Shown: piece after piece, positions 5,599 through 21,427 of the stretch | Position numbering within the stretch: position 1 is the stretch's first letter | Layout: the number at the start of each line of letters is the position of its first letter | From: a virus | DNA: 22,367 bases | IMG/VR virus record: IMGVR_UViG_3300009285_000774 | Location: 1 to 22,367 of that record | Reading direction: 5' to 3' (one strand) | The notes under the pieces: model-generated | Told to the model about the DNA's origin: nothing | The model's database searches: none | The model's input: only the letters and a program-made list of their open reading frames with translations | Program-made: the position numbers and the translations under genes

Positions 5599-6549
5599 CT
5601 ATCCTCCGTTTGCGCTTGAGTAGAAATACGTGATTTTGTAGGACTGATCCCACACCGAGTAGTTGGGGATCGTCCCTTTGTCCGTGATGATGTTCATCGG
5701 TTCGATGTCGATGATCAGGTCATTGAGCGCTGAATCATTCAACAGGCACTTCTCGATGTCGACCATGAGCCCCAGCCGTTCCGTCCTCATACTACGCCGC
5801 GCGACTCGGAGGTCATCGACGTAGAAATATTCGTTGAGGGCGGCTGTGGATTCTACCTCGAGCCGCAGCTGAAAGCCGGTCGCCGTCGTCGGCACGATCC
5901 CCGATATCGCAAGCCGTTCCCACTCGTCGAGCTCCGACGCCGCGTCCGCTGTGGCAAGCGATATCCAAGCCCCATCGTAGTACTGCGCCTGTATCGACAC
6001 CTCAGCCGCTGCTATCCCGCTTGCCGTAGGGATATAGACGTAGCACTCGATATCGAGCATCTCGCCGGGGACAACCCCGTGCATGTCGGTGTTCGTCCCG
6101 TTGTCGGTTTGTCGAGCAAGCGCCGCCGTACCAGCGGCGATAGTCTTAGTGAGCTTATATGAGTAGGTTCCGCTCCGCGCAAAGTCAGACGAGCGTGCAA
6201 AAGTGCATTGCACCAAGCTCGGCTCGCTCTCGCCGAGCATCATCGGAGCTGTCGCCGACTCACAGTTCCCGCGGTCGATGATGTTTGTCATCCCCGATTT
6301 TATGACGCACGATATAATTGCCGTCAGCTCCGCTCGCAGGTCAAGCCCCGAAATCGCCTCCCATCCCCTGACCTCGTCCGCATCGATCGGCATGAGGCAC
6401 GGGATCTCTTTCGATGGGATCTGGTCGTACTGTTTAAGCGTTTCGGATACCGACCCCACCGTCGTGTTGTAGCCGTTTGCCTCCGTGATGGTCTCGAGTG
6501 CCGCGAGCACCCGGTCCATCACCGACTTCCTGACGCTTGATACGCTCAT
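5599..6549 (-). CDS. Tail terminator/completion protein with inserted CBM-like domain
   Basis: A 316-aa protein whose ends form a short tail-completion protein. Residues 1-88 (RKSVMDRVLAALETI, then LRAELTAIISCVIKS) and 254-316 (RTERLGLMVDIEKCLLND, then WDQSYKITYFY) would together make about 150 aa, the usual size for a terminator capping the tail tube below the neck. Residues 89-252 are an inserted beta-rich module matching copies A and B of the tail-tip gene. The insertion is in frame and separates two segments that normally adjoin in this family. Position after the gp10-like gene and before the tail tube supports the role. The ATG overlaps the upstream stop (ATGA). The insert would decorate the head-tail junction; its ligand is unknown. 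Confidence 0.75.
   Translation of the reverse strand: MSVSSVRKSVMDRVLAALETITEANGYNTTVGSVSETLKQYDQIPSKEIPCLMPIDADEVRGWEAISGLDLRAELTAIISCVIKSGMTNIIDRGNCESATAPMMLGESEPSLVQCTFARSSDFARSGTYSYKLTKTIAAGTAALARQTDNGTNTDMHGVVPGEMLDIECYVYIPTASGIAAAEVSIQAQYYDGAWISLATADAASELDEWERLAISGIVPTTATGFQLRLEVESTAALNEYFYVDDLRVARRSMRTERLGLMVDIEKCLLNDSALNDLIIDIEPMNIITDKGTIPNYSVWDQSYKITYFYSSANGG
5794..6285 (-). repeat. CBM-like module copy C, inserted in tail terminator
   Basis: Encodes residues 89-252. Its two ends match tail-tip copy B (NIIDRGNCES, ARSSDFARSG, LTKTIAAGTA; PTASGIA, STAALNEYFYVDD). Its centre resembles copy A (NTDMHG-V-V-P-GE and QYYDGAW versus QYYGAAW). DNA similarity is visible by eye, pointing to duplication or recombination within this phage family rather than distant homology. 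Confidence 0.8.
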
Positions 6550-10410: not shown

Positions 10411-12501
10411 TTAAGCCTCCCCTTTCTCGGGTAGTGTTAAGCATCTGCAATTCACGACCTCTTCAACCGGAGCCGTTTCGTCGTGCGGCCATCGTAGCCC
10501 GTTGGAAAACGGTTCGCCGATGCGCACCGTCTCCGATATCTGATGGCTCGGCCTGACATCGGCATCGCGCGAGTCGAGCCACGAATGATACTCAAACCCG
10601 GAATCAAGGTAACTCGCGATCTCGGCGTCATTGACCACCCCGCCAATCTCGGTCCGCGCTATGGTGTTGCACCGGACCTTGGCTTGGTTGTACAGCGTGC
10701 CCAACTTCTCGGCGGCCTCGGCGTCGGTGAGCCCGTCGGTTACCGCCCGCTTGAGCACATCACGCGTGTCGTTGCGGATGGTCTCGGTGATGCGTCCGAT
10801 CTTCTCCAACCGAGCGTTCAGCATTTCCACCGCACGCGTGTTGAAAATCGACCACGACGCGCTTTGCGCCACTCCCGCGGCCGACAGCACATCACGCACG
10901 TGGGGCTCAGTAGCAGCGATCGCCTCCCGATATCGCTTGGCGGTAAGCGTTCGCAACTCCGACTCCGCCGCAGCCCACCAGCCCTCGTCGAGTATCTCGT
11001 CTATCACGGCTGCAGACGGAGCCTTGCCCCGCTTCTCCCGACTCGCGATATTCAGCGTCCGCGCGCGAATCGCGAATACCCAATCCTGCAACTCCTTCCG
11101 ATACTGCGCCTCCACCTTTGCCCATGTCCGCGTGACCCGCTTCCAGTGCATGTCCTTGTACTCGGGCGTCCACGACGCTTTGTGCTCGAGCATCGCCGCG
11201 ACCGTTACCGTCGCATCCCAGTACTTGATAGGCTCGCTCTCGATGGGATCAGGCGCGGCATCGTAGTCGGAGACCGGCTGTAGCAAAAGCGGCATCCACC
11301 ACGTGTCGCCCCACGGAACCGGATCCTCCCCGCGATCTGATCGAACCTCGTTGATTGTCCTGAGCCCCGCGGCGACGTCGGCCCGTTGCCGCTCGGAGAG
11401 TGCATTCCGGTCTTCCTGCAGCTCCGAGATATGATCGATGTTGAAGCGCCCGATCTCCGCAAACCCGTACCGGGAGAAAAACTCAGTATCGAGCTTGTCC
11501 TCAAAGAACCGAAGCAGCGGGTAGATCGTGCCCTCCCAGAAGTTCCGCATCTGCTCGCCGGTGTCTTTCCCCGATAGAGCACTACCCTCGTCGTACACCC
11601 CGGCCACTGCCGGCGGAACCCCATACCGAGCAAGAATGGTTTGCCGCCCCCACTTCATCAGGGTAAAAAACTGCATGTCCTCGGGCGACATCTGGATCTG
11701 CTGGTACTTCACCCCGGCGCCGAGCACCGATATCCCGTTGCGCCTCTTCGAGCCCCCGTGCTCTTTCTGCCAGCGCTCTTTGATCTCCTTCGCCTGGTTC
11801 TCGTCGAGCGTCGGGTTATCGCTTTCGAGTATGCCCTTGGGCACACCCCCGTTGGTGAGCATGGAAAGGTTCGCTTGAGTGGCGTTGACCACCATGCTCA
11901 GGTCCATCTTCATTGCCCGCAGAGGATTCACGCCCCGGCGCGTAGACCACGGGTTCCAGAGCTTGAAATGGATGAGCTCTTTGGGGAGATATGGGATGGT
12001 CCTGTTATCGATCTTGTACTCCCACATCGTGATATCACCCGACTCGCTCACACGCTCTTTCATCGTCGAGGGGTCAACCACGTAGAGAATATCGGTAAGC
12101 TGCTCCCCAAGGCCGGGAAGCCAGAACGCCTCACCCCGCATCATCAGCCACGAGGTCGTCGACTCCCACAGTTGCGAGCGCGAGAGGAACGGATTCACGT
12201 CGCGAAACAGGTCATGTATCGGTCCGCTCTCGACTACCGCTTCGCCACGCAGGATGTCGAAACGGGCCCTTGCGATGTGCTGCGCGATCTTCGTCACCGC
12301 GATGTTGACCCATGATATCTGTCCGTAGGGATTCGCCGATACCCGCACACTCCCCGAGTCGTCGTCATCGATCTGACCGAGGAGGTAGGCAAGCTCGGTT
12401 GCGGTCGACTTCTCCTTCGGCGGCCGCGTGATGCGGATAGACGGGAGGTTGACCCGGATCAGGTTCGCCGCGCGGTCATACGAGAATAAAGCCACCGGCA
12501 T
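10411..12501 (-). CDS. Portal protein fused to MuF-type head morphogenesis domain
   Basis: A 696-aa protein. Residues 1 to about 410 are an HK97-type portal: ISWVNIAVTKIAQHIA, WLMMRGEAFWLPG, GGVPKGILESDN, then ARYGVPPAVAGVYDEGSALS. After a Pro-rich linker, residues about 430-560 are helical, and 605-690 match the SPP1 gp7 / Mu F family (VRCNTIARTEIGGVVNDAE, then WLDSRDADVRPSHQ and WPHDETAPVEEVVNCRC). The portal is the dodecameric DNA gate; MuF-type proteins are minor head proteins often injected with DNA. Here both are on one chain. ATG has GGAGGTGG upstream and overlaps the terminase end by 26 nt. Confidence 0.92.
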   Translation of the reverse strand: MPVALFSYDRAANLIRVNLPSIRITRPPKEKSTATELAYLLGQIDDDDSGSVRVSANPYGQISWVNIAVTKIAQHIARARFDILRGEAVVESGPIHDLFRDVNPFLSRSQLWESTTSWLMMRGEAFWLPGLGEQLTDILYVVDPSTMKERVSESGDITMWEYKIDNRTIPYLPKELIHFKLWNPWSTRRGVNPLRAMKMDLSMVVNATQANLSMLTNGGVPKGILESDNPTLDENQAKEIKERWQKEHGGSKRRNGISVLGAGVKYQQIQMSPEDMQFFTLMKWGRQTILARYGVPPAVAGVYDEGSALSGKDTGEQMRNFWEGTIYPLLRFFEDKLDTEFFSRYGFAEIGRFNIDHISELQEDRNALSERQRADVAAGLRTINEVRSDRGEDPVPWGDTWWMPLLLQPVSDYDAAPDPIESEPIKYWDATVTVAAMLEHKASWTPEYKDMHWKRVTRTWAKVEAQYRKELQDWVFAIRARTLNIASREKRGKAPSAAVIDEILDEGWWAAAESELRTLTAKRYREAIAATEPHVRDVLSAAGVAQSASWSIFNTRAVEMLNARLEKIGRITETIRNDTRDVLKRAVTDGLTDAEAAEKLGTLYNQAKVRCNTIARTEIGGVVNDAEIASYLDSGFEYHSWLDSRDADVRPSHQISETVRIGEPFSNGLRWPHDETAPVEEVVNCRCLTLPEKGEA

Positions 12502-13681
12502 CCACCTCCATAATCAGATATCGTAGCGCATCCATCGCGTGGTCGTTTTCCTTGACCGGCTCCTCTTTGTCGTTGCGCCCTTCCTTCGTTTCGTTCCACC
12601 GATACAACCCGAACTCGCGAATTAGGTTCGGGCAGTCGGAGGAGATGAACAGCCGCGGCTTCCCGTCGGACTGTTTCACGAGTCGCGCCATGACCTTGCG
12701 GATCCCGACGAGAACTTCCTTGCGCGCCCGGTTGGTAGGGATACCCAGGGCCCCCATCTCGGCGTTGTCCTGCGCATCCCAATCGGCGACGGTCCATTGC
12801 ACGTGCCCGGTACGCGCCTTGATCATGCTCGCGTGGTCCTTCAGGAGCGTCTTCGGCTGGTAGTGCTCGGCGTAGATATAAATCCGCTTGTCCTCGTCGA
12901 GCGCCGCCCACAGACATACGAATGGATTGGTGTAGCCGTAATCGAGCGCCCGGTATCTCGGCCAACTCTCGGGGATGGCGAACGATTTGAGGAGATGCAG
13001 GTTGCGGGAGAAGTCGGGATATACAAGCCCCTCAAAAGCCACGAAGTCGCCCTCTATCTCCTGCTTGGCAAATTCTCCGACGTAGTTTGATTCGAGGTCG
13101 GCCACGTACTCACTCGGAAGATAGGTATTCTCACGAGTCGATGCGTGGATGATCTGATACGCGGGGTCGCCCTTCTCTACCCATCGGCGATAGACCCAAT
13201 TGTAGCCGGCCGGAGTCGTGGTGATCCACGCCTGCGGCTTGTGCCCTACCCGAAGCCGCCCGAGGATGACGTTCCACATCGACTCGCGCATCTGCGCCGC
13301 TTCGTCCAGATACGCCCAGTTGAGGTTGGGCCCGCGAAGCCGATCGGGATTGTCGGACGAGCGGAACATTACCGTGGCGCCCTTGCGCTCGAGGATCCCG
13401 TCTGTCTTGTAGTACTCGTACTTGTAGTTGGCCGCGTCGAGGATCGAGAGGAACGTCTTCTGCGTTACGTCTCGAAGCATCGGGTAGGTGGGGGCTACTA
13501 TCACCCCGTCCTCGCCCTCCTCCATCTTGATCACGGCCTTTAGACTACCTGCGTATGTCTTCCCCGCGCCAAGCCCCGATATGAACGCCGGGTACTTCGC
13601 CTGAGAGAAGAGGAAGTCGTCCTGCTTCGGGAGTAGGTTAATGACTACGGACGATGGTGATTGAGCTTTCGACGTTTCCAC
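12476..13681 (-). CDS. terL: Terminase large subunit
   Basis: A 401-aa DNA-packaging motor. The ATPase half has Walker A GLGAGKT (36-42), Walker B AYLDEA (123-128) and the coupling motif TTTPAG (154-159). The nuclease half shows acidic residues in LDYGY (D247), ADWDAQD (D300/D302) and NDHAMDALRY (D380/D384). It is compact, near the lower end for the family. It starts within the end of the small subunit gene (44-nt overlap) and ends inside the portal start. Confidence 0.95.
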   Translation of the reverse strand: METSKAQSPSSVVINLLPKQDDFLFSQAKYPAFISGLGAGKTYAGSLKAVIKMEEGEDGVIVAPTYPMLRDVTQKTFLSILDAANYKYEYYKTDGILERKGATVMFRSSDNPDRLRGPNLNWAYLDEAAQMRESMWNVILGRLRVGHKPQAWITTTPAGYNWVYRRWVEKGDPAYQIIHASTRENTYLPSEYVADLESNYVGEFAKQEIEGDFVAFEGLVYPDFSRNLHLLKSFAIPESWPRYRALDYGYTNPFVCLWAALDEDKRIYIYAEHYQPKTLLKDHASMIKARTGHVQWTVADWDAQDNAEMGALGIPTNRARKEVLVGIRKVMARLVKQSDGKPRLFISSDCPNLIREFGLYRWNETKEGRNDKEEPVKENDHAMDALRYLIMEVDAGGFILV

Positions 13682-14066
13682 TGTGCTCTACCCTCTGCAC
13701 GTCCCGCCACCGCTCAGGTCGCCGGTTCTTCAACCAGAAGATCTGAGCGATCACGTCTGGAGCCTGTTGCTTGGTCACCGTCTTAGTGACCTCCAACTCG
13801 CCCTCTTTCGCCTCTCGGGTAGTCTCCACGTACTCATATCCGAGAGCGCGTTGATACAGCGACAACTCTACTTTGTCATCGGGGATAGCCTTGCCTCTTT
13901 TTAAGGCGTCGATAAACTCGGGATGCTTATTTTTCCAGTTATGTACTGTGGCTACTGATACCTTGAGCTCTTCTGCAATTTCGGCGTCGATTAGCCCGGC
14001 GCGTGCCATCCAGTAGGCGCGTTCGGGAGTATCTGATTTGTAACCGGATGGTCTGCCGCCCGCCAC
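13638..14066 (-). CDS. terS: Terminase small subunit
   Basis: A 142-aa protein that recognises the packaging site and regulates the large subunit. The N-terminus holds a helix-turn-helix (DAEIAEELKVSVATVHNWKN, about 28-47). The C-terminal part ends with APDVIAQIFWLKNRRPERWR, typical of small terminases. The start is a GTG at 14066 without a visible Shine-Dalgarno sequence. A candidate promoter ends 9 bases before it, so the message may be nearly leaderless. Confidence 0.85.
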   Translation of the reverse strand: MAGGRPSGYKSDTPERAYWMARAGLIDAEIAEELKVSVATVHNWKNKHPEFIDALKRGKAIPDDKVELSLYQRALGYEYVETTREAKEGELEVTKTVTKQQAPDVIAQIFWLKNRRPERWRDVQRVEHSGNVESSITIVRSH

Positions 14067-14108: not shown

Positions 14109-14140
14109 CGCAATCAGGTGGTCGATTTCAGGCTATTGCG
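14109..14140. terminator. Weak inverted repeat at end of DUF115 gene
   Basis: CGCAAT (14109-14114) and ATTGCG (14135-14140) are perfect complements around a 20-base loop, spanning the stop codon of the DUF115 gene. There is no T-run after the stem, so it is not a standard intrinsic terminator. It may be chance or a mild attenuator before the terminase genes. Confidence 0.2.
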
Positions 14141-15482
14141 TCAGTCCCGCACGCCCGTATGTCCCGTCGGCGCACTTCGTCTCGCCCTCCTCGAGCACAT
14201 TGCGGAAGCGCATCATGATCGCAGCAACGTCTATCGTCGGGTCGTAGGTGTCATGCAGCATCCGCACCATCCCCTCGAGGTGCACCATGTTCTGCGCGAC
14301 CACGAGTTTGTGACCCTCCAACATCGGCACGAAGTAGTGCTGCTTGACCGCCAGCCACGGCTCGAGGCGCTCCCGAGTGCTCCGCGCCTGCGGCCGGATC
14401 TTCGCCCCCTGCGTCTCGATGACCTCCCGGATATCCGCCTTGGGATACAACCCGTCGAGTAGCCCATCCGATGCGTCTACGACGTGCATGTTGTCGACCC
14501 ACGACATCGCTACCGTCGTCGTGCGGTAGTGGGTCATCACGTAATCGGTCAATCGCCCACCCGCCGTCGTGATCCGGATGTGGTTGGTATTCTGGGCATT
14601 CTGCGTCGGCTCGCCCGGCGAGAGTACCCAGCGCTTGCGCTTCTCCCCCGTAGGCTTTTGGTAGTGCCATGCGTCAAACCGCACCGTCTCGTGGTAGCAC
14701 TGATCGCATCCCATGAGGATGAGCGGCGAGTAGCCCATGAAATTGGCCGCGGCCATCTGCATCGGAATCGAATGCGAGAACGGTTGCATTTGCGTCTCGA
14801 TCCAGTTATACCCGGTCGAGAGCGCGTAGGCGTAGAAATAAACCGCCGGATCGTAGACCCGGTACAAATATTTCGTTCCCTTCCACCAGTCGTGGAGGGC
14901 GGGATTTATCCCGGTATGCGTGATCATCACCGTCTTCGCGTAGTCGTAGGGCTTGGCGTCGAACTCCTCCACGGCGCTGAACGGATCGAAGTTCAGTATA
15001 TGCTTGGGCGGAGCTCCGTACTTCTGTAGCGTCGATGCGTGAGAGGATGAGCAGATAAGCCCCCCCCCCCACTTGCGCAGGTGTGGGAGCGCATCGTTGA
15101 GCGAGCACCCTGAGCCGATGATAATGCATGGCCCCGAGTGGTTCCCCTGCGGGAGATCGTGGGCTTGGTGCCGACCCCGGAAGTAGTACCGCAACGATTC
15201 GCCGATCTCATCCGCGCACCGGGAGAGCACGGCCAGCGGCTTCGCCCACTCGTCTCGATGCATATCCTTATAGAGCAGATAGTGATTGCCGAAGGCGGAC
15301 ACCATTTCGCGGGGGAGAATCTTGTTGATAGTCGCCACTTGGAACGCCACCATGTCGGCGGTAATCTCGTTTTCGGGGATGGGTTTCCGGCCTCCGTCCT
15401 CGAACTTTTTGGCAATCTCGTCGTCATGAAGTCGGCGCTCCCCAGGGGCGAACCGGTCCGGGTTACCGATGTGCTCACTCAT
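14133..15482 (-). CDS. DUF115 / Maf-like (MptE-related) putative glycosyltransferase
   Basis: A 449-aa protein. Residues about 115-265 match the DUF115 core: PCIIIGSGCSLNDALPHL with a G-x-G-x-S-L nucleotide-type loop (123-128), then a conserved ILNFDP (D166), and MGYSPLILMGCDQCY (249-263). DUF115 covers archaeal MptE (pterin pyrophosphokinase) and bacterial Maf proteins, which are linked to transfer of nonulosonic acids to flagellin. The nearby CMP-sugar synthetase favours the glycosyl-transfer reading. Residues 139-141 (GGG) are encoded by an 11-G run. The N-terminus overlaps the small zinc-ribbon gene by 8 nt. Acceptor and sugar are unknown; role inferred. Confidence 0.72.
   Translation of the reverse strand: MSEHIGNPDRFAPGERRLHDDEIAKKFEDGGRKPIPENEITADMVAFQVATINKILPREMVSAFGNHYLLYKDMHRDEWAKPLAVLSRCADEIGESLRYYFRGRHQAHDLPQGNHSGPCIIIGSGCSLNDALPHLRKWGGGLICSSSHASTLQKYGAPPKHILNFDPFSAVEEFDAKPYDYAKTVMITHTGINPALHDWWKGTKYLYRVYDPAVYFYAYALSTGYNWIETQMQPFSHSIPMQMAAANFMGYSPLILMGCDQCYHETVRFDAWHYQKPTGEKRKRWVLSPGEPTQNAQNTNHIRITTAGGRLTDYVMTHYRTTTVAMSWVDNMHVVDASDGLLDGLYPKADIREVIETQGAKIRPQARSTRERLEPWLAVKQHYFVPMLEGHKLVVAQNMVHLEGMVRMLHDTYDPTIDVAAIMMRFRNVLEEGETKCADGTYGRAGLTQ
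15060..15070 (-). repeat. 11-G homopolymer inside DUF115 gene
   Basis: The coding strand reads T followed by eleven G and then CTTATC, encoding Trp-Gly-Gly-Gly-Leu. No other homopolymer of this length was noticed in the window. Slippage by one base would frameshift and truncate the protein inside its core domain. In this sequence the frame is intact (ON). Confidence 0.9.
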
Positions 15483-15684
15483 AGTAGGTCGCCTCCCACT
15501 GCTCCTCCACGAACTTCGTCACGGTGCCACAGACGGAGCAATTAGGAATCACCCGATTCGGTTTCCTCCATCCCGCCCCTGACAATGGAGCCGCGCACTT
15601 CGGGCACTCGTACCGCCCGTATCGATACCCAATCGCACTCGCGAATTGCTGTATAGCAACCGCGATCTTCTCACTTATAGTCAT
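15475..15684 (-). CDS. Small zinc-ribbon protein, 69 aa
   Basis: Contains two Cys pairs, CPKC (about 28-31) and CSVC (about 49-52), spaced as in a zinc ribbon, after a short helix (EKIAVAIQQFASAIG). It begins inside the end of the cytidylyltransferase gene (14-nt overlap) and ends inside the DUF115 start. It therefore lies between the two sugar genes. It may bind nucleic acid or simply be a structural zinc protein; no family recognised. Confidence 0.7.
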   Translation of the reverse strand: MTISEKIAVAIQQFASAIGYRYGRYECPKCAAPLSGAGWRKPNRVIPNCSVCGTVTKFVEEQWEATYYE

Positions 15685-16426
15685 AATAGACCTCCATCCC
15701 TCTTCCGTCGAGTATGTAGTGCTCCATGATGAGCGCGCACAAGTCGAACTCGGTGAACGTATCTGTCTCCGGTACCTGCCACGCCTCCACCTCGATGTAA
15801 TAGATCTGGTTGTTCGGCGCGTCCCTCGATTCGAGGACCATGCTGTCGAGATCCTCGTCGTGGTCCGATGGAAGCTGATGCGTAAACCACTGGTACCACC
15901 GCGGGTGGTTTACCGTCACGACTCCCGAGGCGAGCGAAAAATGCCGTTTGTACTTGTCGGTGAGAATAGCCTCCGCCACGATCCCGCCTTTGTCGCGGTA
16001 GATGAACGTCTCGCGGTTGCGATGCATCGCCGAAACCTGCCCACCCGTGTTGTGCCAGTGCTTCACCGCCCGGTCGATATCGTCCGGCTTCCGCATCGGC
16101 GAGGTCGGGAGCAAAGTCGCCATCGTCCAGTCGAGCCCGATGTCGGCCTCGAGCACCTCGATAGCGTGGAGGAGTGGACGGTTCGCGGCCACAAGATCAG
16201 CGTCAGGCCAATTCGGCCGACGAATCACTTCGGCACCGTAGCGCCACCCGATCTCCTCGATCTCATCATCGTCGGTGGACAGCACTACCCGATCCACCGT
16301 CCGCGAGTTGATCGCCTGCACGATCGACCACGCCACAAGCGGATGGCCGCAAAAGTTCTTCACGTTCTTCCGCGGCACCCGTTTCGATCCGCCGCGAGCG
16401 ATGACGATAGCCACAACAGGTTGCAT
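15671..16426 (-). CDS. NeuA-like CMP-sugar (acylneuraminate-type) cytidylyltransferase
   Basis: A 251-aa protein of the CMP-Neu5Ac / CMP-Kdo synthetase family, which joins CTP and a keto-acid sugar to give a CMP-sugar and pyrophosphate. Visible motifs: the CTP loop IARGGSKRVPRKN (9-21), VVLSTDDDEI (47-56), LLPTSPMRKPDDI (105-117), and the C-terminal ETDTFTEFDL (220-229). Length is typical. The start lies 3 bases after the permease stop, inside one continuous operon, and the DUF115/Maf-like gene follows downstream. NeuA, PseF and LegF subtypes cannot be separated by eye, so the sugar (sialic, pseudaminic, legionaminic or other) is open. Confidence 0.88.
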   Translation of the reverse strand: MQPVVAIVIARGGSKRVPRKNVKNFCGHPLVAWSIVQAINSRTVDRVVLSTDDDEIEEIGWRYGAEVIRRPNWPDADLVAANRPLLHAIEVLEADIGLDWTMATLLPTSPMRKPDDIDRAVKHWHNTGGQVSAMHRNRETFIYRDKGGIVAEAILTDKYKRHFSLASGVVTVNHPRWYQWFTHQLPSDHDEDLDSMVLESRDAPNNQIYYIEVEAWQVPETDTFTEFDLCALIMEHYILDGRGMEVYYDYK

Positions 16427-16429
16427 ACT

Positions 16430-17239
16430 CTACTCCCTCACGGCTCCCCCGAGAGCCGTCACAAAATATTTGTTGGCGATGAGAAATATCGCAAGCATCG
16501 GTAGCGCCAACACCACCGCGGATGCAAGTGAGTACCCGATCGGGTTCACGGTCGCCTCACCCCCGCCCCTGCTCATCGCCGCTCGCATAAGCCCGATCAA
16601 AAGCGTGTGCACGTCGGGCCGTTGCAATTGCAGGAGTTGCCACAGATAATCGCCCAGCGCCCCGAGCCCCGAGAACAACGCGATCGCCGTTATAATCGGG
16701 CGGCTGATCGGCGCGACTATCCGTAGCAGGATCTGCAAGTCGTTCGCCCCATCGATCCGCGCCGAGTCCATCACGCCCTTCGGGACCGTCTCGAAATACG
16801 CGCGAGCCAGGTAAAGACCCATCGGCATGTAGCACAGCGGGAGCACCGCCGACCATAGCGTCCCCGCCACCCCGAGCTTCCGCATGACCACGAATAGCGG
16901 GATGATAAGCGACATCCGCGGCACCATCACTCCCGACAAAAGAAGCGCCCACAACACCCGCTTGCACCGGAACGAGTAGAACGCGAAGGCGTACCCGCCG
17001 CTTGCCGATACCGCCACCGCGAGCACAACAGTCATCGCGAGCACAATGCCGGAGTTCCGCGCCCACAGCAGAACCGGATGCGACGTCACCCATCGGTAGT
17101 TGTCCAGCGTCGGCATCCGAGGCCAGAAACGAGGAGGCATAATGAACAGCCCCCGCATCTCCGTCAACGATCCCACGATGAGAAACCACACAGGGAGTAG
17201 CATCACGACGATGATGGCGACAAGTACTGCTCGGTTCAC
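16430..17239 (-). CDS. Sugar ABC transporter permease, MalG-type
   Basis: A 269-aa inner-membrane permease. A longer open frame extends upstream to 17776, but the extra N-terminus is low-complexity and lies antisense-like over the preceding permease, so the GTG at 17239 (GTGA overlap with the previous stop) is the real start. Six hydrophobic segments are visible, with SGGYAFAFYSF (80-90), characteristic of MalG-type subunits. The cytoplasmic EAA-like loop is VMDSARIDGANDLQILLRIV (156-175), which would contact an ATPase. The partner is the permease upstream, with the binding protein before that. No ATPase gene is in the window. Confidence 0.9.
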   Translation of the reverse strand: MNRAVLVAIIVVMLLPVWFLIVGSLTEMRGLFIMPPRFWPRMPTLDNYRWVTSHPVLLWARNSGIVLAMTVVLAVAVSASGGYAFAFYSFRCKRVLWALLLSGVMVPRMSLIIPLFVVMRKLGVAGTLWSAVLPLCYMPMGLYLARAYFETVPKGVMDSARIDGANDLQILLRIVAPISRPIITAIALFSGLGALGDYLWQLLQLQRPDVHTLLIGLMRAAMSRGGGEATVNPIGYSLASAVVLALPMLAIFLIANKYFVTALGGAVRE

Positions 17240-18042
17240 CGCTGCACCCGTTGTCTCACGAGCGCGACGCCCATCATCATCACGAGCAAGATCATCGACA
17301 TCGCCGCGGCCGGTCCATGCCTCGACATCACGAAAGCCTCGCGGTAGATCACCCATCCCATAGTCGCGGCGTACTCGAACGGAGCGAGCGCGTAGATCGT
17401 CTCGAACACCTGCGGAGCCGCGACCACCGTGAGTAGTACCAGCACCCCTATCGTCCGCGAGATCATCGGGAGTACTATCCGCAGCTTGATCATCCACCAC
17501 GGAGCCCCGTCTATCACCGCCGCGTCGTAGATGCTCGTGTCGATCCCGAGGATCGAGGCAAGCACCACGATGAGCACGCCTCCGAGTCCGGTCGTAGCCA
17601 CGATCAGCACGATCGCAGGTATGGCAGTCACCCCCTGCGCAAACCACTGCACATGCATCCCGAGAATCCAGTTGATCGGCCCTTGCGAGTGGAAGATCCA
17701 CCGCCACACCTGCGAGATGATGATTCCCGCAGCTACCACAGGGAGGTACATGAGCACTCGGATCACATCGTGCCATCGTTTCCGCTCACGCATGACGAGG
17801 AGCGCGATTGTCACCGCGCCCCCCACCGATAGCGTCACCATCCCGATCGCATACCACAGGCTGTTGAGCATCGACCGCAAAAAAACCGGGTCGCCGAATG
17901 CTCGCGCGTAGTTCGCAAATCCGACGAACCGGCTGACTATGAAGTTGGTCCTGTATAAGCTGATGACAACGAGTTCGCCCACAGGCCAAATCGCGAACAG
18001 AGCGCACGCGACGAGCGACGGTGCCAACAGCAAGTACTTCAT
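17236..18042 (-). CDS. Sugar ABC transporter permease, MalF-type
   Basis: A 268-aa permease with an N-terminal helix (LLLAPSLVACALFAIWP), FVGFANYARAF at 39-49 (the typical N-terminal signature of these subunits) and about six membrane spans. The EAA loop is IYDAAVIDGAPWWMIKLRIV (171-190), followed by LP. The ATG overlaps the binding-protein stop (ATGA), and the stop overlaps the next permease (GTGA). Both junctions predict balanced synthesis of the pair. Of the CUT1 (oligosaccharide) type by length and motif; substrate not readable. Confidence 0.9.
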   Translation of the reverse strand: MKYLLLAPSLVACALFAIWPVGELVVISLYRTNFIVSRFVGFANYARAFGDPVFLRSMLNSLWYAIGMVTLSVGGAVTIALLVMRERKRWHDVIRVLMYLPVVAAGIIISQVWRWIFHSQGPINWILGMHVQWFAQGVTAIPAIVLIVATTGLGGVLIVVLASILGIDTSIYDAAVIDGAPWWMIKLRIVLPMISRTIGVLVLLTVVAAPQVFETIYALAPFEYAATMGWVIYREAFVMSRHGPAAAMSMILLVMMMGVALVRQRVQR

Positions 18043-19283
18043 TCGTCGGCGATTGCCCGGTTGATCGCCTCGGCGTACTCGCGGATCGCAGCTTTAGGCG
18101 TCACCTCGAGCTTGAGCACCCGTTGAAGAATCGGGAAGTGCTGCGGCCTGGTACGCGCGAAAAACGGCATCGTCGAACCGAAATCGAACACCCCGAAGTC
18201 GGCCATGATCCGCGCCGTCTCCGCTACCCGCGGATCGTCCTTGAGGAATCGAGCGTCACGCCGCGAAGGGACGTTTCCCATGAGCGTGGCGTACTCCTGA
18301 AATTTGACCCCGTTGGCGTACTCGACGAATCGCGCAGCCCACTTATCGGCCTCGGTACCCGTCTTGTGCACGACGAACGCCGCGGCGCTCACGTAGGTCG
18401 GGGCACCTCCCGGGAACGGGAAAAACTGATAGTCAAATGGTTTCCCGGTCCCGTTGCTAAACACGGTGTCAAAGTACGGCTTGATCCACGCCGGGAAGAA
18501 AGCGGTCGCCGCGAGTTCGCCCCGTGCCCACTGCAACACGTAGTCGTCATCGGTCAGCGTCGCCGCGTCGGGCGGGATGTAGCCGTTGCGAACCAGCGTC
18601 TGGAAAAACTCGTATGCCTTCGCGCCGCCCTTGTCGATGGTCGTGATGGCGTACCCGTCCGCGTAGTACTCCGCTCCGAAGCTCGCAAACCAGTTGTTGA
18701 TGAGGTAGTCGCCGGATTGATTCGCAGCGAACATCCCCGTTGCCCACTTCTCACCGCCGTATTTCTGCTTCACGAGCTCGGCCATCTTCAGGAAATCCTC
18801 GATGGTCCAGTCCCAGGTAGGCGTAAACCCGATCTCCCGCATGATCTCCATGTTGACCGCCATGCCCTGAGCTCCGCCTACGTCGGGGAGTCCGAGTACC
18901 TTGCCATCGCGCGTGTATGGACTAAGGTCGACGTATTGGTCGAGGTCGCGGATGTAGCCGTTGAGCGGGAGCGCGAACTCCGAGACAAGAGACTCGCTAA
19001 CTCTCCCGATGAAATCGACGTAGATGTTCGGAGTGTCCCCCGCGGCGTTGAGCGCAACCATCGTGAGCGCTGAGCCGGTGGACAGATCAATCTGCAGCAT
19101 CTCCACCGTCACGCCAGGGAAGTCTGCCCGCATCCTCTCGGCCGCGTCGTCGTATCGGGTCCAGCCGCCGAGATCGGGATTGCCGCCGTGCAAGAGCGTG
19201 ATCGTCCGCTCCTCCTGTAGTCCAGCTCCGAATACCGAACCGGCGATGAAGAGCACTACCAAAAACAAGATCCATCTTTTCAT
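18039..19283 (-). CDS. Family 1 sugar-binding protein of ABC importer
   Basis: A 414-aa extracytoplasmic solute-binding protein. Residues 1-20 are a signal peptide (MKRW then hydrophobic, ending VFGAG) with no lipobox cysteine, so probably secreted or periplasmic rather than a lipoprotein. The mature part matches the family 1 fold: TITLLHGGNPDLGGW near the start, GLPDVGGAQGMAVNMEIMRE, TPTWDWTIEDFLKMAELVK and WARGELAATAFFPAWIKPY. An ATG with GGAGG lies upstream, and the start overlaps the zinc-ribbon stop. It would capture a sugar or glycan fragment for the two permeases. Cognate sugar unknown. Confidence 0.9.
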   Translation of the reverse strand: MKRWILFLVVLFIAGSVFGAGLQEERTITLLHGGNPDLGGWTRYDDAAERMRADFPGVTVEMLQIDLSTGSALTMVALNAAGDTPNIYVDFIGRVSESLVSEFALPLNGYIRDLDQYVDLSPYTRDGKVLGLPDVGGAQGMAVNMEIMREIGFTPTWDWTIEDFLKMAELVKQKYGGEKWATGMFAANQSGDYLINNWFASFGAEYYADGYAITTIDKGGAKAYEFFQTLVRNGYIPPDAATLTDDDYVLQWARGELAATAFFPAWIKPYFDTVFSNGTGKPFDYQFFPFPGGAPTYVSAAAFVVHKTGTEADKWAARFVEYANGVKFQEYATLMGNVPSRRDARFLKDDPRVAETARIMADFGVFDFGSTMPFFARTRPQHFPILQRVLKLEVTPKAAIREYAEAINRAIADE

Positions 19284-19519
19284 CTATGGTCCTCCATGAC
19301 TCGTGCTACCGCCCTATTTTTGTTTTTGTCAACCCCGTCTGCGTGATATCCGCAAAGATTGCAGTGATAGCTCCCGTGGTGATCGGTCAACATCCTCGCG
19401 TGACACTCTGGGCAGGGCCGGACATGGACGAACCACTCGCCCCGACAGCCGGATGCCGTGCGAACGTTGGGGTCGTTTTGCTTCGGCATGATCAGGACGA
19501 CATCATAGTATCGCGCCAT
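19280..19519 (-). CDS. Small zinc-ribbon protein, 79 aa
   Basis: Two Cys pairs, CPEC (36-39) and CNLC (54-57), form a probable zinc ribbon, with His residues between. It is the first gene after the repeat array and overlaps the binding-protein start by 4 nt, so it leads the cargo operon. An AGGAGGG lies about 16 bases before the ATG at 19519, farther than usual. A later ATG at residue 11 (MPKQND) has no better site. Could act as a regulator; no family recognised. Confidence 0.65.
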   Translation of the reverse strand: MARYYDVVLIMPKQNDPNVRTASGCRGEWFVHVRPCPECHARMLTDHHGSYHCNLCGYHADGVDKNKNRAVARVMEDHR

Positions 19520-19553
19520 GTGACGGCTCGTAATTCCCTCCTATCGCCAAACC

Positions 19554-19752
19554 GGCTCGCTCGGGCTACATGGGTTACTCGGTAACGTTGGCTCGCTCTT
19601 TACCGATGGGTTTCTCTAGACTCATGGCTAGCTCGCTCACTTAGGGTTTCTCAGGTACATCGGCTCGCTCGCGCGCGTCGGGTGGCTCGGCGGGGGATGG
19701 CTCGCTCGCGTAATCTGGGTTTCTCGCTATTCCTAGCTTATTCATTACGCGC
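19554..19752. repeat. 18-bp-period tandem array with alternating half-units
   Basis: Eleven consecutive units, all 18 bp except one of 19. On the plus strand odd units start GGCTCGCTC and even units start GGGTTTCTC (or GGGTTACTC); each is followed by a 9-bp non-conserved half. Starts: 19554, 19572, 19590, 19608, 19626, 19644, 19662, 19680 (19 bp), 19699, 19717, 19735 (degenerate). The array fills the gap after the IS110-like gene and overlaps its last codons. A 7-bp hairpin (TCGGTAA 19579-19585 with TTACCGA 19600-19606) lies within. Both strands carry stop codons through it, so it is not coding. Candidate roles: iteron, ParB-type site or operator cluster. Confidence 0.75.
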
Positions 19753-20527
19753 TATGTCTTTTCCCGAGATACTCGCTCTGATACGGCTCCCGCACCGGCA
19801 AGCCTTCGAGTGTCCGCCATGCGACGTACAGGTCTCGGAGGAACATCTTGACCATGTACCGCGTCGCGGCCTTGTGCTGATGCCCCGCCTTCGGTCGCGC
19901 CTTGTCGGTCGGATTCTTGCTCGCCGTCCCCCACTCCGCGGACTCAAGACGATGCTTCATGTTGTCGTAGTACTCCCGGTAGGGAGAATTGCATTTCAAG
20001 AACGACGGTCCAAGCACCCCGCATAGCTTTGCTTTCAGAAATTGGTTGTACGGACAGAGGTAGCCTTTCGTCCGCTTGTCACCCCGGATCTTGTCGGTAG
20101 TCGGAATCAGTTTCCGTTCCTTTCCCTTGCCTTTGGCGAGCTTCCCGAATACCTCACCGGGATTCAGCCCGGCAAACTGCCATATCTTCGACACCGTAGT
20201 AGCACGTTCAATGTCAATCTCAGATATGAGCACGGCCGCGACCGACTCGCCGACTCCTTTCGCGTCGGCAAGAAAGGCGATCCACAATGGATGCGTATGA
20301 ACTTCTTTCGCGAGATCCTTGAACAGCGCCTCCTCGAAAGCGAAAATGCTTTGACGCCTCTCTCGAAGGACAAGCATCATGGTTTCATCCGTCTCCGGAG
20401 CTCCCGCCTTTGCCTCGCCGTCTTTCTTGATTCCAAGTCGCCCATCAAGCGCAATGCGCTCATCCTGATAATCGTAGTACGCTCGCATGTTGATCTTAAT
20501 CGAGTTGCGAATGGCATCTTTCATCAT
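19745..20527 (-). CDS. IS110/IS116-type C-terminal domain protein, no RuvC half
   Basis: A 260-aa protein. Residues 88-125 (DAKGVGESVAAVLISEIDIE then VSKIWQFAGLNPGE) match the helix-hairpin-helix-like start of the IS110-family C-terminal domain. Residues about 150-195 (RGDKRTKGYLCPYNQFLKAK then SPYREYYDNMKHR) and 218-245 continue it. The N-terminal DEDD RuvC-like domain of real IS110 transposases is absent; instead there is a helical 1-80 region. It is too short and lacks element ends, so it is not an insertion sequence. It is a phage gene of unknown role, coupled to the ParB-like gene (ATGA overlap, with GAGGTGG before the ATG). Confidence 0.7.
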   Translation of the reverse strand: MMKDAIRNSIKINMRAYYDYQDERIALDGRLGIKKDGEAKAGAPETDETMMLVLRERRQSIFAFEEALFKDLAKEVHTHPLWIAFLADAKGVGESVAAVLISEIDIERATTVSKIWQFAGLNPGEVFGKLAKGKGKERKLIPTTDKIRGDKRTKGYLCPYNQFLKAKLCGVLGPSFLKCNSPYREYYDNMKHRLESAEWGTASKNPTDKARPKAGHQHKAATRYMVKMFLRDLYVAWRTLEGLPVREPYQSEYLGKRHSA

Positions 20528-21201
20528 GCCACCTCGTCAAGAATAACGCCGATCGCCGTGTGAAGTTCCCGGAGTTTCGCCGTTGTCTTTTCAGTGAGTT
20601 CGAGCGCTTCTGCCCGGAGCGCATTCAAAAGCATGTAAGCGTACATCTCAGGAAGGCATCCGTTCGCAGTCCGCGCATAATGCTCTTGTGAATCTGTCAG
20701 CGTCTTTCCGGCAAGACCGCGAGCCCCGGCTGGAAGCGGGATAGTTTCTCCGCTCTGCGTCTTCGCCGATCGGCTCTTGACGAACTCTTTCATGACTTCC
20801 GGATCCATGTGCAAGGCCTCGGCGATCGCAGCCGGAGGGATCTTGTACTTCCGTGCACGGATGATGAAATGCGCCCGATCCTTCGGACCCATGACAAGCC
20901 CGTGTTGCGAATTATAGGCCCCTGCCGCAAGAAACATCTCGGCGTCGGTAGCAAAGTCGTGTAGATCGACATCGATTTCGGTGTCTTCTCCGAACACGTC
21001 AAGAACGGCTCTCGTCCGGTGAAAACCGTCTACAATGCGCAGATCCTTTTTGTTGGCGACGACAGGCGGGAGGGAATAGCCGGAACGTAACGCCGCTCGC
21101 ATTCGCGCTACGTTGGTCGAATCGAGTACCTGCGCCGATTGCCTCGGCCACAAGCTCCAGTCGAACACTAGCTCAATGGCTTTGATCTTTGTGATTCCCA
21201 T
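20524..21201 (-). CDS. ParB-like nuclease-fold protein
   Basis: A 225-aa protein. VDGFHRTRAVLDVFG (58-71) is the conserved G-x-H-R motif of the ParB/sulfiredoxin fold. Residues about 108-141 (DRAHFIIRARKYKIPPAAIA and onward) look like a helix-turn-helix, as in ParB. An ATG at 21237 is also in frame, but the ATG at 21201 has GAGGAGGT seven bases upstream and a candidate promoter 50 bases before it, so this start is preferred. Such phage ParB-like proteins may bind DNA or act as CTPases or nucleases. The neighbouring repeat array is a possible binding site. Function not demonstrated. Confidence 0.75.
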   Translation of the reverse strand: MGITKIKAIELVFDWSLWPRQSAQVLDSTNVARMRAALRSGYSLPPVVANKKDLRIVDGFHRTRAVLDVFGEDTEIDVDLHDFATDAEMFLAAGAYNSQHGLVMGPKDRAHFIIRARKYKIPPAAIAEALHMDPEVMKEFVKSRSAKTQSGETIPLPAGARGLAGKTLTDSQEHYARTANGCLPEMYAYMLLNALRAEALELTEKTTAKLRELHTAIGVILDEVA

Positions 21202-21253
21202 CGGGAACCTCCTCACGAAATATGGACTTCCCGGCACAACGCGCCGGTTAATT

Positions 21254-21282
21254 AACTCTACACCCTCACCTCCTCGCGGTCA
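21254..21282 (-). promoter_or_regulatory. Candidate sigma70 promoter upstream of ParB-like gene
   Basis: TTGACC (21282-21277), a 17-bp spacer and TAGAGT (21259-21254) fit a sigma70 promoter on the minus strand. The palindrome GTTAATTAAC (21246-21255) covers the expected start site and could be an operator. The 118-bp gap 21202-21319 has no other credible coding content. Confidence 0.55.
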
Positions 21283-21319
21283 AGCGCTTTTGCGTCGGAT
21301 GCTTGTGGCCGGTGATAGG

Positions 21320-21427
21320 TCACCGATGCTTCCCTGCCCGATTGTCGCGTACGCGAAGGCAGATGGCGAGTACCGTCAAGCTCCCCGCGATAAGCGCGAG
21401 GGCGACGTAGAGCGCTGCGAGGGTCAT
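21320..21427 (-). CDS. Predicted single-pass membrane peptide, 35 aa
   Basis: ATG at 21427 overlaps the stop of the gene upstream (ATGA), and the TGA is at 21320-21322. The product starts MTLAALYVALALIAGSLTVL, one hydrophobic helix (about 2-23), then a basic tail (LRVRDNRAGKHR). Too small for family recognition, but the coupling and clean helix-plus-basic-tail design support it. Could be a holin-like or membrane-interacting peptide; speculative. Confidence 0.5.
   Translation of the reverse strand: MTLAALYVALALIAGSLTVLAICLRVRDNRAGKHR

Follow-up and report, generated by a model that had tools for sequence, protein, structure and literature searches.

A phage-borne gene cassette predicted to import, activate, and transfer a sugar acid

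Host-adapted bacteria scavenge sialic acid for surface decoration by combining an importer with NeuA and a sialyltransferase. The transporter of these bacteria is usually of the TRAP, SSS, or peptide-type ATP-binding cassette (ABC) class, and the acceptor is lipooligosaccharide. Glycosylation genes are also known from phages and are thought to use sugars made by the host. The enzymes EpaA and EpaB of an Acinetobacter prophage epimerise a nonulosonic acid produced by the host (PMC12053666). SatABC of Streptococcus pneumoniae is a CUT1 importer of sialic acid that lacks its own ATPase and shares MsmK (PMC4519317); the requirement of MsmK for sialic acid was not reproduced (PMC3302838). The flagellin glycosyltransferase CbMaf takes both cytidine monophosphate (CMP)-N-acetylneuraminic acid and CMP-3-deoxy-D-manno-octulosonic acid (PMC11339370). 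Here we describe a gene cassette located on a 22,367-bp virus fragment from IMG/VR (IMGVR_UViG_3300009285_000774, hereafter the window), the core of which encodes a CUT1-type solute-binding protein (SBP), MalF-like and MalG-like permeases, a predicted CMP-sugar synthetase (NeuA), and a Maf-like putative glycosyltransferase (MptE). The cassette is likely to serve salvage glycosylation, in which a sugar is imported, activated with cytidine triphosphate, and transferred to protein by phage-borne genes.

Gene content, order, and recurrence of the cassette

The cassette of the window comprises seven genes, all on the minus strand, which were delineated from reading frames and Pfam and NCBIfam scans. 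The first frame of the run encodes the 79-residue protein ZnA (19280–19519), which has only weak similarity to zinc ribbons. It is followed by the genes of the SBP (18039–19283; SBP_bac_8, PF13416, E-value 6.6e-15), the MalF-like permease (17236–18042; NCBIfam UgpA, 2.6e-18, with a sub-threshold Pfam match), and the MalG-like permease (16430–17239; BPD_transp_1, 3.1e-9; GlcU, 6.7e-24), both permeases containing the EAA coupling motif. The remaining genes encode the predicted CMP-sugar synthetase of the NeuA/PseF kind (15671–16426; CTP_transf_3, 2.4e-18; PseF, 8.4e-28), the 69-residue zinc ribbon ZnB (15475–15684), and MptE (14133–15482; PF01973, 2.9e-12, over the cut-off). The true start of MalG is the GTG at position 17239, and the mechanically determined open reading frame from 17776 is too long. 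Neighbouring genes overlap by 4, 4, 4, 14, and 8 bp, and the one gap, between MalG and NeuA, is 3 bp long. The co-directional, overlapping run of seven genes described in the first-pass annotation of the window was thus recovered with all frames in the same order. A scan for promoters and terminators gave results near chance.

Searches of viral contigs started from the SBP and continued with progressively enlarged alignments of MptE, NeuA, and SBP; in the final scan, the SBP was the sole bait. The same gene set was found in 11 distinct uncultured phages encoding this SBP family, with the window and its sister strain L002 counted as one (the others are L005, L007, G006 (L016 and L024), L054 (also L064), L055 (also L056 and L057), L059, L060, L061, L062, and L063, the contig of which starts within the SBP gene). 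All 11 carry SBP, MalF, MalG, NeuA, and MptE in one order on one strand, even where small unrelated genes are inserted. The contigs L008 and L017 are truncated at MptE or shortly before it and give no information. Since the five-gene order recurs in 11 further distinct phage contigs besides the window, with protein identities of 20–70%, chance is excluded. The conserved core is therefore formed by these five genes, and ZnA, previously proposed as a member of the unit, lies outside it, having no counterpart upstream of the SBP in the other carriers. Independent carriage of the transporter and sugar genes, which would have spoken against a joint function, was not found among the SBP-family carriers, all of which have the full ordered set.

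A twelfth phage, L006, retains the NeuA–MptE pair, with NeuA 69% identical to that of L007 and MptE 56–66% identical to those of other carriers (66% to L008). In place of the transporter of the other carriers, it encodes a distantly related CUT1 system (19–27% identity to the other carriers in SBP, 27–34% in MalF, and 30–41% in MalG). The window represents the converse, since it combines ordinary SBP, MalF, MalG, and NeuA with a foreign MptE, which is 26–30% identical to the other 13 MptE proteins, whereas those 13 share 40–66% with one another. Replacement of the parts by functional analogues with retention of the unit is as expected from selection on a joint function. The large terminase subunits (TerL) of the carriers belong to several unrelated families, with 15–23% identity between groups, and therefore the cassette is not bound to one phage backbone. 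The distances of the cassette proteins are intercorrelated (Mantel p 0.0005–0.046), whereas they are not correlated with those of TerL (p 0.07–0.63). The cassette is probably under strong selection, because it recurs on unrelated backbones and survives gene-by-gene replacement.

Predicted functions of the importer, synthetase, and transferase

The transporter has the composition of a CUT1 importer, with an SBP of the SBP_bac_1/8 type and one permease each of the MalF and MalG kind. The SBP of the window is 44–54% identical to those of 10 phage relatives, and its segment KWATGMFAxNQSGDYLINNWFA is near-invariant among the carriers, which suggests one conserved ligand. The SBP profile matched structures of CUT1 sugar binders, including 9rsi (4.4e-18) and the arabino-oligosaccharide binder 6rjy (6.5e-11); no paper describing the top matches 9rsi and 9ru4 was found. 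The signal peptides of the SBPs lack a lipobox, suggesting that the protein is periplasmic in a diderm host. The EAA loop, which is the docking site of the ATPase, is kept in both permeases of all carriers. However, the cognate ATPase expected of a CUT1 importer is missing, as no ABC ATPase (PF00005) exceeded the cut-off in the 14 contigs, including the near-complete 67-kb contig of G006. By analogy with systems that share an ATPase, the phage transporter would act as a CUT1 importer only together with an ATPase of the host.

In the 67-kb contig of G006, MalG is split with one half at each end, the halves do not join in frame, and roughly 0.2 kb is missing between the ends. Positions 20001–40000 of this contig (L025) contain QueC-like and FolE-like genes, seen by eye, which suggest 7-deazaguanine modification of the DNA. 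Exported proteins of 300–337 residues with a C-terminal phenylalanine are encoded directly upstream of the SBP in L061 (8974–9987) and L062 (9085–9987). They have no match in Pfam and, judging from their sequences, are probably outer-membrane beta-barrels, with no obvious relationship between the two. The N-terminus of the L062 barrel is a near copy of the signal peptide of the SBP.

The synthetase profile matched the structure of NeuA (9ftb, 1.8e-30), and the protein has the CTP_transf_3 fold with the motifs ARxGSxxxPxKN and PTSPL. The first motif is intact in the window (ARGGSxRxPxKN) and, with minor substitutions, in eight other carriers. The window enzyme scores below the PseF equivalog cut-off (97.5 versus 205.7 bits) and is best described as a predicted CMP-sugar-forming enzyme of the NeuA/PseF kind. 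The condensing enzyme NeuB/PseI (PF03102) is absent from all 14 contigs of the cassette carriers, whereas it was detected in the comparison phage L010. The sugar is therefore probably obtained from the host or by import, and the combined lack of the ATPase and NeuB suggests that an ATPase of the host is borrowed and the sugar scavenged.

Interspersed among the genes of the foreign CUT1 transporter in L006 (137–4447) are those of a class-III aminotransferase, a BNR (sialidase-like) protein, and an aldo/keto reductase, which suggests that the imported sugar is altered before activation. The aminotransferase gave no match in Spirochaetota at 1e-40.

All 14 MptE relatives match PF01973. The only fold match of the MptE family model (modest pLDDT of 56) below 1e-3 in the PDB is the flagellin glycosyltransferase Maf (5mu5, 8e-7), which was also selected by the sequence profile, with coverage of the central domain. 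MptE thus has the PF01973 central domain with the Maf fold, and we consider it a putative protein glycosyltransferase of the Maf type. The phage proteins are about 450 residues long, shorter than Maf (500–670 residues), and the majority have a zinc ribbon at the C-terminus. This ribbon, with two CxxC motifs about 20 residues apart, is present in 13 of the 14 proteins and lacking in MptE of the window, immediately upstream of which lies the separate ribbon gene ZnB. The profile of the MptE C-terminus gave a short and weak match to ZnB (9.6 bits, E-value 4e-5 against one sequence). In L062, two tandem MptE/Maf-like genes follow a single NeuA (16251–19197) and perhaps serve two acceptors.

The MptE gene of the window contains a tract of eleven guanines (15060–15070, within the codons of W-G-G-G), which encodes the glycines of a conserved glycine motif. 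The suggestion that the last step of the pathway is phase-variable was not supported, because the tract has the same length in L002 (99.7% identical; only two assemblies were compared), so that no variation in length was seen, and none of the other cassettes contains such a tract. When the window was shuffled 300 times, a run of at least 11 arose in 12 cases, which makes the tract unusual, not compelling.

Proposed salvage route and alternative explanations

Based on the gene content and the similarities of the encoded proteins, a route of salvage glycosylation can be proposed. In a diderm host, the SBP would bind a sugar acid in the periplasm, most likely a nonulosonic acid, a closely related compound, or a glycan that carries such a sugar. 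MalF and MalG would move the cargo inward, driven by a MalK/MsmK-type ATPase that the host would have to supply, the phage lacking one. The NeuA-like enzyme would turn the imported sugar into a CMP-sugar, so that importer and synthetase would share one substrate, and MptE would put the sugar on serine or threonine of a virion protein or of a protein on the host surface, for instance flagellin. A virion protein is a possible acceptor because the cassette runs into late genes; the acceptor could be of either kind, and we make no choice between them. The reading of the cassette as one unit for import, activation, and transfer, advanced in the first-pass annotation, has strong genomic support in the conserved order and slot-wise replacement, and is retained here with the five-gene core and without phase variation. 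We put forward only tentatively that the cassette constitutes a new viral strategy, a complete salvage route by which an extracellular sugar acid, taken up during infection, is attached to the phage's virions or to the host surface independently of host biosynthesis and which in some phages includes an outer-membrane pore.

Several observations weigh against the proposed route. The ligands of the closest solved SBPs are oligosaccharides or sugars that are not named, with sialic acid named for none, and oligosaccharides are the cargo of most CUT1 importers. The structure model of the SBP is unusable (pLDDT 42), and the ligand site is not readable from it. The first synthetase motif is changed to PQHxxSxRLPxKA in L005, L006, and L007, the enzymes of which may have another substrate or have lost activity. 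The congruence of the other cassette proteins with MptE is weak (rho 0.29–0.51). Moreover, most of the contigs are fragments, and an ATPase or NeuB could lie beyond their ends.

The oligosaccharide cargo typical of CUT1 nutrient importers, and of the closest solved SBPs, would also fit two functions joined in one late operon, with the transporter importing a nutrient, as an ordinary auxiliary metabolic gene set, or blocking superinfection at the envelope, and NeuA and MptE separately glycosylating a protein with a sugar made by the host. Maf-like proteins are frequent among Spirochaetota, occurring in 43 of the 393 genomes scanned, so that some hosts may produce CMP-nonulosonate. We regard such a division as unlikely, given that all 11 SBP-family carriers have the complete set in a fixed order, that L006 has exchanged its transporter as a block but kept NeuA–MptE, and that genes for metabolism of the imported sugar were recognised beside no cassette except that of L006. 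It is about equally unlikely that MptE is no protein glycosyltransferase and moves the CMP-activated sugar, or another group, onto a nucleic acid, lipid, or small molecule, with the ribbon contacting this target beside the packaging machinery. PF01973 also holds 6-hydroxymethylpterin diphosphokinase, and that of M. jannaschii is the third fold match of the MptE model. We know of no Maf with the C-terminal zinc ribbon that is present in 13 of the 14 carriers, and the cassette is usually located near the small terminase subunit (TerS). However, only Maf reaches significance in the fold search (8e-7 versus an E-value of 0.011 for the diphosphokinase), and the pairing with a NeuA-like synthetase is a hallmark of Maf loci (PMC11339370, PMC4065374).

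Searches beyond the carriers bear on the origin of the cassette. No relatives of the SBP or MptE were found in 50,697 named-phage records, among which NeuA matched only one Moritella fragment. Matches to MalG in named phages resemble host fragments in unannotated records, as would be the case if the cassette were a bacterial contaminant or a recent piece of host DNA on a contig that had been mis-binned. This explanation is highly improbable and was rejected, since it is refuted by the recurrence of the cassette, which is flanked by phage genes in 12 contigs and embedded in the near-complete 67-kb phage genome, has the G+C content of the phage, and has only distant cellular relatives. The scan of bacterial genomes gave no relatives of MptE and only four matches to MalG, with 29–32% identity, and the SBPs of plasmids are only 22–25% identical. 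Spirochaetota were suspected as the host because of the signal peptides of the SBPs, but the 393 genomes contained only SBPs of about 21–25% identity and ordinary cellular Mafs.

Genomic surroundings and comparison with known systems

The G+C content is even over the cassette and the rest of the phage. On the terminase side of the cassette, the window encodes TerL, a portal protein with a fused MuF-like domain, a prohead protease, a capsid protein, and a tape measure protein. TerS (13638–14066, minus strand; phrog_309, 1.8e-52) starts 66 bp past the end of the cassette and is its downstream neighbour, not a part of it. A 901-residue protein (3–2705) carries CBM_4_9 modules (residues 44–386), and a similar module (residues 89–268) is inserted in a small tail-region protein of 316 residues (5599–6549); the modules of the two virion-region proteins share 36–50% identity (50% over 171 residues). 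On the other side of the cassette lies a 1.8-kb block (19522–21329) encoding a ParB-like protein and an IS110-like transposase, in place of which L002 has 57 bp. L005 has such a pair (46% and 59% identical to that of the window) after a head gene (11183–12567), and the pair looks mobile because it is missing in L002 and placed elsewhere in L005. Of the 30 substitutions between the window and L002, 26 fall within a 0.45-kb part of the portal gene (11902–12346), which looks like a recombination tract.

No report of a phage-borne sugar importer coupled to glycosylation was found in the open-licence literature. The component families are all known, and their phage-borne combination appears to be new. 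If the proposed route is true, viruses use their own importer to take a specific outside metabolite for post-translational modification. The cassette also provides an entry to two questions, the targets of phage Maf/DUF115 proteins and the source of the acidic glycans on some virions.

The loci for O-glycosylation of flagellin by Maf in Campylobacter, Aeromonas, and Clostridium likewise have a NeuA/PseF-like synthetase beside a PF01973 transferase, whereas the cassette is phage-borne, has a transferase of about 450 residues with a ribbon in most cases, and lacks NeuB and other biosynthesis genes. SatABC resembles the transporter in having a CUT1-type SBP and two permeases without its own ATPase, and its sugar-acid cargo is of the kind proposed for the phage. 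However, SatABC is catabolic, is encoded on a Gram-positive chromosome, and forms a unit with neither a CMP-activating enzyme nor a transferase. EpaA and EpaB are also phage genes that act on the nonulosonic acid chemistry of the host surface, but they do not form a cassette with a transporter, synthetase, or transferase. Another phage (L010/L011, IMGVR_UViG_3300025313_000030) encodes a CMP-sugar synthetase together with NeuB, and no SBP or permeases were seen in it, which looks like de novo nonulosonate synthesis by a phage. The scavenging of sialic acid by bacteria follows the same logic of import, CMP activation, and transfer; its genes are cellular, whereas the cassette is a phage unit beside the terminase.

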